From: Bdellovibrionales bacterium
GTDB lineage: Bacteria > Bdellovibrionota > Bdellovibrionia > Bdellovibrionales > UBA1609
Direction: 5' to 3'
DNA: 38,793 nt
Assembly (NCBI GenBank): GCA_028819545.1
Contig: JAPPLG010000034.1
Coordinates: 1 to 38,793, forward strand
The notes under the pieces are model-generated. The model had not been told where the DNA came from, searched no databases, and saw nothing but the letters and a program-made list of their open reading frames with translations. Positions 2,833-25,390 of the stretch are shown here, one piece after another. Positions within the stretch are counted from its first letter, which is position 1. Each line of letters opens with the position of its first letter. Both the position numbers and the translations under genes were made by a program.

Positions 2833-2835
2833 AAT

Positions 2836-2908
2836 GGGGCTGTAGCTCAGCTGGGAGAGCGCAACGCTGGCAGTGTTGAGGTCAGGGGTTCGATCCCCCT
2901 CAGCTCCA
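2836..2908 (+). tRNA. tRNA-Ala (GGC anticodon)
   Basis: A 73-nt cloverleaf with acceptor GGGGCTG/CAGCTCC containing the G3-U70 wobble pair that defines alanine identity, discriminator A and anticodon GGC in ACGCTGGCAGTGT. The T-arm is AGGGG-TTCGATC-CCCCT. CCA is not encoded. It starts 3 nt after the stop codon of the coiled-coil gene. Its 3' part from C56 onward is repeated 198 nt downstream (see the tRNA-linked module). Confidence 0.97.
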
Positions 2909-2910
2909 AT
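2891..2910 (+). repeat. Direct repeat copy 1 (tRNA-Ala 3' end)
   Basis: CGATCCCCCTCAGCTCCAAT, running from C56 of tRNA-Ala to 2 nt past the discriminator base. An exact second copy lies at 3089-3108. The pair resembles att-site duplications left by elements that integrate into tRNA 3' ends. Confidence 0.9.
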
Positions 2911-2945
2911 AAAAAAAGAGAGGGCTGTAAGCTCTTTCTTTTTTT
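2911..2945 (+). terminator. Terminator-like hairpin after tRNA-Ala
   Basis: A 16-bp stem (2911-2926 with 2930-2945, two G-U pairs) closes a 3-nt GTA loop and its 3' arm ends in a T-run, so it can act as a rho-independent terminator. Its 5' arm and loop, GGGCTGTAAGCTC, nearly repeat the 5' end of tRNA-Ala (GGGCTGTAGCTC, one inserted A). Confidence 0.75.
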
Positions 2946-3088
2946 ATCGAAAATGGGGGATCGAATTGAAGTTTCGATCCGTGTTGGCTGTGAAACAGCT
3001 AATACGGAGAGATAAAACTGGATGTTTTATCTAGAGGCTGAAGAGAGCCTACGCAAGTTGTGAGCGTGATGCGAACAACTGTAGTGGG
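2946..3088 (+). ncRNA. Structured tRNA-Ala-linked RNA-like module
   Basis: This follows the terminator-like hairpin. In order: an 11-nt antisense copy of the tRNA-Ala T-loop/T-stem (2955-2965); a 13-bp hairpin with two G-U pairs and a GAA loop (2979-3007); a 9-bp hairpin with loop TGGAT (3010-3032); a 5-bp hairpin (3035-3050); and a core of CTACGCA (3049-3055), stem AGTTGT/ACAACT (3056-3061 with 3075-3080) enclosing GAGCGTGATGCGA, then GTAG (3081-3084), which pairs with CTAC. The antisense strand pairs over 9 bp with the second tRNA copy (3089-3097) and closes the whole structure. The module at tRNA-fMet has the same plan with covarying stems. Transcription is inferred, and DNA-level function (an integration element) is equally possible. 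Confidence 0.65.
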
Positions 3089-3108
3089 CGATCCCCCTCA
3101 GCTCCAAT
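3089..3108 (+). repeat. Direct repeat copy 2 (displaced tRNA-Ala 3' end)
   Basis: Exact copy of 2891-2910, separated from it by 178 bp. It ends 1 nt before the stop codon of the convergent Omp85 gene (TAA at 3112-3110). No tRNA body precedes it: the upstream bases GTGGG replace the T-loop TT, so this is not a second tRNA. Confidence 0.9.
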
Positions 3109-17799: not shown

Positions 17800-17880
17800 A
17801 CCTTCACTCAGCAGTGCCTAGTACTATTGTTCGGTTGGCATCTCACCACTTCACCTCCGCAAAGGCAGGGGTTCAGATTT
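17800..17880. repeat. Dispersed repeat family, degenerate copy
   Basis: The stretch around 17829-17876 (TTCGGTTGGCATCTCACCAC... then GCAAAGGCAGGGGTTCAG) aligns with 29196-29242 in the secD-secF gap (TTCGATTGGCATCTCAATTA... then GCGCAGGCAGGAATCCAG). It lies after tyrS and carries no coding potential. Confidence 0.65.
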
Positions 17881-25037: not shown

Positions 25038-25061
25038 TTACCATTGCGAGGGCAGGATTTG
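25038..25061 (-). repeat. Direct repeat copy 2 (displaced tRNA-fMet 3' end)
   Basis: An exact 24-bp copy of 25240-25263, running on the minus strand from C56 of tRNA-fMet to 6 nt beyond the discriminator base. It ends 4 nt before the dsbD start codon. Exactly 178 bp separate the copies, as at tRNA-Ala. Confidence 0.9.
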
Positions 25062-25239
25062 CCTACTGCGGTCACTCGCATTACGCTCTTTCCCTGCGTA
25101 GACTCCCCTCAGGCATTCAGAAAAGCATCCAAGCTTTTCTGCCTTGTGTTCAATGCTTTCACATTCAACACAAGTCATGTCTTCACTTCAAATCCTGCAG
25201 ATGACAAAATAACAATCCCTCTTGCGAGGAATTTTTATT
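25062..25239 (-). ncRNA. Structured tRNA-fMet-linked RNA-like module
   Basis: In minus-strand order after the tRNA: a 6-bp hairpin with GCAA loop (25216-25231) that includes CCTCGCAA, a copy of the tRNA acceptor end; a 12-nt antisense copy of the tRNA T-loop/T-stem (25187-25198); a hairpin of 8+4 bp (25143-25174); a 9-bp hairpin with loop TTGGAT (25118-25141); and the core CTACGCA (25095-25101), GAGCGTAATGCGA (25076-25088) and GCAGTAGGC. The antisense segment pairs over 10 bp with repeat copy 2. The order, spacing and core match the tRNA-Ala module while stems differ and still pair. The stem equivalent to AGTTGT/ACAACT is poor here. Transcription and function are inferred. Confidence 0.65.
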
Positions 25240-25263
25240 TTACCATTGCGAGGGCAGGATTTG
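25240..25263 (-). repeat. Direct repeat copy 1 (tRNA-fMet 3' end)
   Basis: The in-place copy of the repeat. It covers tRNA-fMet from C56 to the discriminator base plus 6 nt of 3' flank (TGGTAA in tRNA sense). Confidence 0.9.
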
Positions 25264-25319
25264 AACCTGCGACCTCCGGGTTATGAGCCCGGTGAGCTAC
25301 CAGACTGCTCCACCTCGCG
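25246..25319 (-). tRNA. Initiator tRNA-fMet (CAT)
   Basis: A 74-nt cloverleaf on the minus strand starting CGCGAGGTGGAGCAGTCTGG. The first base pair is a C1-A72 mismatch and the anticodon stem ends in three G-C pairs (GGG-CTCATAA-CCC), the two hallmarks of the bacterial initiator. The T-arm is GCAGG-TTCAAAT-CCTGC. CCA is not encoded. Confidence 0.97.
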
Positions 25320-25390
25320 ATCGTTTTACTAAAATCCACAGATCACAGGCTTATGTCAAGCTTGTATAAGGAAAGGGGAGGAATAGAAAG

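Follow-up and report, generated by a model that had tools for sequence, protein, structure and literature searches.

Guide-bearing, RNA-like units at the T-loop of tRNA genes in Bdellovibrionota: candidates for small mobile elements

Two tRNA genes in the window, namely the whole 38,793-nt stretch of DNA from a Bdellovibrionales bacterium that was analysed here (GenBank assembly GCA_028819545.1, contig JAPPLG010000034.1), are each followed by a short unit in which a folded core adjoins a guide complementary to that same tRNA. Such units sit between T55 and C56, where they are followed by the displaced native 3′ end of the tRNA, and form a family that recurs behind many tRNAs in the phylum Bdellovibrionota. 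We tentatively regard them as small, non-autonomous, guide-bearing mobile elements specific for the T-loop of tRNA and tmRNA genes, a reading to which we would give a rough probability of 0.45.

Both units of the window are built in the same order: the tRNA up to T55, the stretch from C56 to the tRNA end with 2–6 nt more, a terminator-like hairpin, the guide, the core, and a second copy from C56 to the tRNA end (Table 1). A preliminary description of these two modules had placed the start of both duplications at C56 and given 178 bp for both spacers, and this is confirmed; the repeats themselves are 20 nt (Ala) and 24 nt (fMet). Also as described there, CTACGCA, GAGCGTRATGCGA and GYAGTRGGC of the core and the hairpin loop TGGAT are common to both modules, and the core ends in GTRGG. 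The closing stems, GGGGGATCG/CGATCCCCC in the Ala unit and GCAGGATTTG/CAAATCCTGC in the fMet unit, do match their own tRNA, and the complement extends 2 nt further than was stated, with AA opposite T54T55. The P5 helix (GCCTAC/GTGGGC) is closed by C56 itself, and the closing stem is able to pair with either tRNA copy, upstream or downstream. By analogy with the comparison of empty sites given below, the second copy behind tRNA-Ala is taken as the native 3′ end. Terminator-like hairpins resembling that of the Ala unit recur in other units of this genome.

Table 1. Features of the Ala and fMet units in the 38,793-nt window
Feature	Position	Strand	Basis
Ala unit, whole	2835..3108	+	
tRNA-Ala(GGC), target of the Ala unit; T54T55 at 2889-2890	2835..2909	+	ARAGORN, Rfam tRNA
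First copy of tRNA-Ala 3′ end (from C56, at 2891), completing the living tRNA	2891..2910	+	repeat search, sequence
Terminator-like hairpin between tRNA and guide of the Ala unit	2911..2945	+	sequence; overlapped by inverted repeat
Ala guide, GGGGGATCG+AA, 11 nt complementary to tRNA-Ala starting at T54	2955..2965	+	sequence, pairing
Ala folded core, terminus GTGGG; P2 2970-2975/3034-3039, P3 2979-3007, P4 3010-3032 (loop TGGAT), P5 3047-3052/3084-3089, P6 3056-3080	2966..3088	+	single-sequence fold; P3-P6 also in consensus model, P2 absent from it
Second, displaced copy of tRNA-Ala 3′ end	3089..3108	+	repeat search
fMet unit, whole	25320..25038	-	
tRNA-fMet (CAT), target of the fMet unit; T54T55 at 25265-25264	25245..25320	-	ARAGORN (as tRNA-Met), Rfam; initiator status follows the preliminary description and our own reading
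First copy of tRNA-fMet 3′ end, C56 at 25263	25240..25263	-	repeat search, sequence
Terminator-like hairpin between tRNA and guide of the fMet unit	25204..25239	-	sequence
fMet guide, GCAGGATTTG+AA, 12 nt complementary to tRNA-fMet starting at T54	25187..25198	-	sequence, pairing
fMet folded core, terminus GTAGG; P3 25174-25143, P4 25141-25118, P5 25103-25098/25066-25061	25062..25186	-	sequence, consensus model
Second, displaced copy of tRNA-fMet 3′ end	25038..25061	-	repeat search

Elsewhere in the window, a 60-nt sequence is present at both contig ends (36-95 and 38734-38793) in inverted orientation with 97% complementarity, and looks like the terminus of an insertion sequence that interrupted the assembly. 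Short interspersed repeats of the CCTGCGCAGGCAGGAATCC type lie at 17848, 29127, 29213 and 37042; a similar-looking hairpin, GGATTCCCGCTTTCGCGGGAATGAC, forms the spacer of a Gln unit in a relative (L015).

In the 1.45-Mb genome the exact core word occurs four times; besides the two window units, these are the members of a 200-bp tandem that follows tRNA-His and has a guide matched to His. A word search with 3 mismatches allowed gave no more matches than the reversed control, and a DNA search found additional copies in this genome and in relatives. With a covariance model built from 16 copies, 15 matches with E < 1e-20 were obtained in this genome, which, together with the fourfold exact core word and the His-matched tandem, puts the units beyond chance. 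These matches lie behind the tRNAs for His (two), Phe, Arg-CCT, Ala-GGC, Ala-TGC, Leu-TAG, fMet, Met, Leu-GAG, Ser-TGA, Trp and Gln, and the remaining two have no tRNA called by ARAGORN; the genome holds 34 tRNAs by Rfam. The model also matched in 23 of 98 relatives and, with the best 8 candidates per genome scored, in at least 65 of 368 genomes and at least 44 of 181 genera of the phylum. The preliminary description had anticipated many matches downstream of tRNA genes with a P1 stem fitting the adjacent tRNA, and such matches were found with the covariance model in the genome and its relatives; neither of the outcomes that it had named as adverse, namely no further copies or a known family, was seen. 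Indeed, apart from tRNA, no Rfam family reached the gathering score over the window, and at E<=1 over 14 loci only six weak matches below the cut-off appeared besides tRNA (E 0.018-0.99): two to Plastid-ycf2 over tRNAs, and four to microRNA-precursor models over hairpins at two loci. Viral contigs and phage and plasmid records gave no match to the units. An exact pattern run over species genomes hit 14 stretches, 13 of which were attributed to unit-bearing genomes of the phylum; the taxa were Bdellovibrionales, Bdellovibrionaceae, Bacteriovoracaceae and a few loosely named MAGs, and Bdellovibrionales and Bacteriovoracaceae belong to the NCBI phylum Bdellovibrionota. The other stretch (L045, Polyangiaceae) lacks a tRNA and resembles a coding sequence, and it is therefore taken as a chance match.

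The loci fetched for comparison are a chosen sample, mainly the best-scoring places among the 98 relatives and the 368 genomes of the phylum, and contain 114 covariance matches; 112 were compared with tRNAs, two truncated partial units being left out. An ARAGORN tRNA lies upstream on the same strand in 88 of the 112, at less than 200 nt in 74, at 200-420 nt in 9 and further away in 5. As for the other 24, contig ends or N runs truncate seven; L032 shows a tRNA-like end that ARAGORN did not call; two belong to tmRNA; in two more (L203 and L212) the matching tRNA end is 2.4-3.5 kb upstream with genes intervening; and twelve show none of these. In the fetched sample 29 kinds of tRNA precede units, and tmRNA is a target as well (L155, L170). 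Several arrays consist of full units followed by one that is truncated at its 3′ side. We also noticed several recurring features around the units. In this genome, a common tail of the type TCTTCTTTT..AAGAAGC follows the displaced copy of the His, Arg, Phe, Met (C12) and L095 units; it may either move along as part of the unit or indicate a favoured flank. In five loci (L014, L016, L035, L222 and L223), degenerate pieces of tRNA-Ser or tRNA-Arg with a unit remnant neighbour a further copy of that tRNA, and in L222 and L223 an integrase lies past this further copy. The hairpin between tRNA and guide shows loop motifs that recur in different genomes (CTTACG..CTAACG and GGAGTAC..ACACCT-like; L169, L181, L189 and L043, L051, L165), which are perhaps a protein site.

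The claim that the two modules belong to one RNA-like family, with covarying stems around a fixed core, is borne out by 110 distinct sequences. Both sides change in 40 of 42 pairs, 93% of the paired cells are observed to pair against 63% after shuffling, and the covariation score is 0.721 against 0.199 in shuffled and at most 0.106 in slid controls; the alignment behind these counts was fitted to the model, which favours the fold, and the controls lie far below. Compensatory changes hence exceed those of both controls, as in a structured-RNA family. Outside P1, likewise on a model-fitted alignment, G-U pairs outnumber A-C (147 vs 22) and A-G outnumber C-U (136 vs 10), an excess that identifies the tRNA-sense strand as the one that folds. 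Most simply, this strand would fold into its conserved multi-hairpin structure as RNA; RNA and folded single-stranded DNA both fit, because G-T and G-A pairs form in single-stranded DNA too. The tips of P4 and P6 have alike loops, GGA being present in 85 of 114 P4 loops and 65 of 114 P6 tips; CsrA-like GGA loops were considered and set aside, the loops being too variable. A likeness of P5 to integron attC was also dropped, since the junctions disagree when compared by eye.

The insertion point was examined in the 62 units that have a tRNA within 420 nt and a downstream copy matching 11 or 12 of 12 positions. The left edge of the repeat is C56 in 55 and T55 in 7 of these, and the repeat is 17-30 nt long in 40, shorter than 17 in 4 and longer than 30 in 18, the longest being tandem units. 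A target-site duplication of which one edge is fixed and the other varies fits reverse-transcriptase elements and integrases alike, and the direct repeat of the tRNA 3′ end around an insert that leaves the target gene restored is the layout of tyrosine-integrase islands. Empty sites were available for tRNA-Gln: of 16 loci read (24 fetched; 15 of the 16 from one genus), 4 are occupied, 10 have no unit in about 500 nt, and 2 (L107 and L110) have shorter guide-bearing remnants or variants. The sequence past the 3′ junction in occupied L101 is that past T55 in empty L112; in occupied L106, where the tRNA remnant is decayed, the further flank agrees with empty L115. These comparisons show a clean insertion.

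Starting at T54, the target has its reverse complement in the guide, and the tRNA match claimed for the guide in the two modules holds over 88 guide/tRNA comparisons. Guides pair with their own tRNA at 10.7 of 12 positions and with the other tRNAs of the set at 8.3 of 12, a foreign guide already pairing that well because T-arms are alike; the matched positions add up to 942, compared with 736±10 after shuffling and a maximum of 773 in 10,000 shuffles. In this genome, the 13 comparable units pair without a break from T54 over 8-14 nt; over the 88 loci this contiguous match is 8-14 nt in 55, 15-19 in 5, at least 20 in 6 (L143, L060, L162, L171, L169 and L064, the longest 22 nt) and below 8 in 22. 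Many of the last are a recurring variant, in which T54-C56 are paired and the next two pairs are swapped for tandem G-A. Where the two tRNA copies differ, the guide fits only the upstream copy at 139 positions and only the downstream copy at 27 (85 of the 88 loci, three with N excluded), which is no proof of upstream pairing, as the downstream copy has no function and its differences may come from decay.

Cores follow the genome more than the tRNA. With identical copies within a genome dropped (109 cores left) and tRNAs 420 nt or more away ignored, the mean core identity is 0.68 for the same genome and another tRNA (n=101), 0.58 between genomes at a shared tRNA (n=107) and 0.55 when neither is shared (n=5598). 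Among 82 units of multi-unit genomes, 42 have their nearest core within their own genome and 34 have it in a different genome, in either case at another or unassigned tRNA; for 3 the nearest core is at the same tRNA of another genome, and for 3 both are shared. In the close pair L159 and L179, the cores are 0.89 alike, with one guide for Gly and the other for Leu. Units have therefore moved among tRNAs within lineages while their guides changed, or else cores were homogenised there, gene conversion being the alternative source of the likeness within a genome. In an island, the att core that the element carries fixes one tRNA target; here, related cores are found at many tRNAs of one genome.

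Genes accompany some units, as far as can be read from their translations: a SEC-C-like protein intervenes in L203, SRPBCC-like and lipoprotein-like genes lie between two units in L209 (tmRNA-type end), a HEPN/MNT-like, toxin-antitoxin-like pair between two array units in L187 (1283-2028), and a DUF4160-like and an antitoxin-like gene between two array units in L152 (1118-1673). AbiE-like genes and an integrase fragment are upstream of the unit in L212. As partners of the units, reverse transcriptases (RVT_1) and IS110 were considered, and neither is enriched: RVT_1 is present in 9 of 23 unit genomes vs 26 of 75 others, and IS110 in 4 of 23 vs 9 of 75. One RT match exists in this genome, and the single-contig unit genomes G058 and G069 have no RVT_1. 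Seven proteins of this genome match PF00589, and in the four that were fetched, three lie behind tRNA-Val, tRNA-Ile and tRNA-Pro without a unit and one has no tRNA in the stretch. The former three (L219, L220 and L221, on C13, C26 and C9) are phage-type integrases of about 390 aa, convergent at the tRNA 3′ ends.

Integrases lead to the main rival of our reading, namely that the units are mini-islands of a tyrosine recombinase: the unit would be an attachment region, possibly as folded single-stranded DNA like the attC sites of integrons, the tRNA end would be the element-borne att core, the integrase would act in trans, and the guide would be no more than an arm of an inverted repeat that this recombinase requires. 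We consider this possible yet doubtful. tRNA and tmRNA targets with a displaced fragment are a known island layout, as far as the available part of the Islander description goes (PMC4383910), and an integrase (PF00589) and HTH_17/excisionase-like genes directly abut the unit upstream in L205 and L207, with SSB also in L205, to which the fragment in L212 may be added. PF00589 proteins are present in all 25 unit genomes tested, but equally in all 14 controls. The unit-adjacent integrase subfamily, at 1e-60 and with the best 5 candidates per genome scored, is found in at least 23 of 65 unit genomes vs at least 131 of 303 others, and has no match in this genome by the same scoring; 30 loci of the subfamily were fetched with roughly 1.5 kb on either side, less in some where the contig stopped short, and a unit is present in two of them while another gives a weak match. 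The lack of enrichment and the scarcity of units at subfamily loci weaken the view of units as att ends belonging to int-xis(-ssb) elements, and the integrase element of L205 and L207 may have entered an already unit-bearing locus independently. The three integrases of this genome at unit-free tRNA ends also speak against mini-islands, and so does the sorting of cores more by genome, whereas an att-borne tRNA end predicts sorting by tRNA. The preliminary description had offered a tRNA-specific recombinase as mover of a non-autonomous element; the recombinase is possible without being tied to the units, and the non-autonomous mobile element is the best supported of the three meanings given there, in view of the clean insertion at empty sites and the spread over tRNAs.

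The other two meanings, an intron-like RNA and a tRNA-sensing regulator, have gained no support other than from the structure and the match. As a T-loop intron, the unit would be spliced from the pre-tRNA between U55 and the core 3′ end to restore the native tRNA, with the guide sequestering the duplicated end and reverse splicing spreading the unit. The guide pairing across U54U55|C56, the element 3′ end abutting C56 and the RNA-like folded strand would all suit this, and insertion would be neutral whether or not splicing occurs. Still, we find it improbable: Rfam gave no match to a ribozyme, whether group I, group II or another type, in the window or the 14 loci, splicing at decayed downstream copies would make a faulty tRNA, reverse splicing into another tRNA would carry along the donor 3′ end, and a terminator-like hairpin precedes the guide in this genome. 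A cis-acting regulator, in which the guide of a read-through RNA pairs with the tRNA or with the decoy copy and thereby tunes tRNA maturation, seems to us slightly more improbable still. The guide is complementary to the living tRNA, and the hairpin and the copy stand behind the tRNA on the same strand; against this, presence is patchy (4 of the 16 tRNA-Gln loci), tandem and truncated units exist, the copy decays while core and guide persist, and cores sort by genome more than by tRNA. That the units are an assembly artefact or ordinary repeats is hardly credible; most genomes are drafts with contig ends often near units or tRNAs, but units are present in the one-contig genomes G058, G069 and G071, and the covariation extends over 110 distinct sequences.

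Returning to guide-bearing mobile elements, the element would consist of the hairpin, the guide and the folded core, amounting to 178 bp in the window and elsewhere sometimes including kilobases of genes before the guide. It would insert 5′ of C56 and thereby come to lie between two direct copies of the tRNA 3′ end, usually 17-30 nt long; the tRNA would be kept complete and gain a new downstream sequence, with a terminator-like hairpin in this genome. The guide lies next to the core, and the final base of the core borders directly on the insertion point; as RNA or as a folded single strand, the guide could pair with the target and position the insertion. With new guides, the element would pass between tRNAs. 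A mini-island predicts neither a strongly selected fold in one strand, nor a target complement beside that fold, nor related cores with changed guides at many tRNAs. A selected fold, an adjoining complement and retargeted related cores would all be explained by a guide that acts in target choice. How this might proceed is more speculative, and we think the following scheme rather unlikely: the element RNA would pair with one DNA strand of the T-loop and acceptor region, the other strand would be cut opposite C56 and prime copying from the element 3′ end, a second cut would fall near the far end of the guide duplex, and the guide would change upon entry into a new tRNA. The longest guides (22 nt) are near the repeat length.

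To our knowledge, the combination of a folded RNA-like body, a guide to a host gene and an insertion that spares its target is not known from any described system. No description of such a family of units was found in the open subset of PubMed Central. If our reading is true, the units are phylum-wide mobile units that combine an RNA-like body with a host-gene guide and leave the target whole; they would explain part of the tRNA-gene variation in Bdellovibrionota, make target-matched insertion open to test where no RNA-guided enzyme is known, and might lead to a site-specific inserter that can be programmed. If insertion is guide-directed as well, they would amount to a compact mobile RNA that retargets itself and leaves its host gene intact, and even with an ordinary integrase as the mover, the selected fold and guide would be a new means of specifying an attachment site.

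Among known systems, group II introns and their ORF-less forms also have a structured RNA with a target-pairing segment at a fixed site and are retargeted through changes of the guide; unlike them, the units have no Rfam match, pair with their target mostly downstream of the insertion point, have a target repeat and possess a core of only about 123-125 nt in the window. In the omega RNA of IscB/TnpB, a guide adjoins a structured scaffold as it does here, whereas the units lack an Rfam match and their guide is also complementary to the flank of the element itself. Integron attC cassettes recombine as a folded single strand, which the units possibly do too, and the toxin-antitoxin-like genes between units in L187 and L152 are reminiscent of cassettes; by eye, the T-loop target, the multibranched fold and the tRNA-specific guide set the units apart. 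SINEs and MITEs are short, non-autonomous repeats with target duplications, as the units are, but the units are bacterial, the tRNA is their target and not their source, and their insertion base is fixed. In the available parts of their descriptions, IS110/IS1111 elements with a bridge RNA or seekRNA (PMC11208160, PMC11187229, PMC11208158) likewise have a non-coding segment that matches the target site, related elements choosing different sites; they use two programmable loops, in contrast to one continuous guide, 17-30-nt repeats and a restored tRNA in the units, and DEDD_Tnp_IS110 has no match in this genome. Finally, the tyrosine-integrase genomic islands in tRNA and tmRNA genes, as described in the available part of the Islander paper (PMC4383910), share with the units the targets, the restored gene and the displaced 3′ fragment as a direct repeat, while the units are 178 bp here, mostly gene-free and tied to no integrase, and differ from islands in having a covarying folded strand with a target-complementary guide at many tRNAs per genome.
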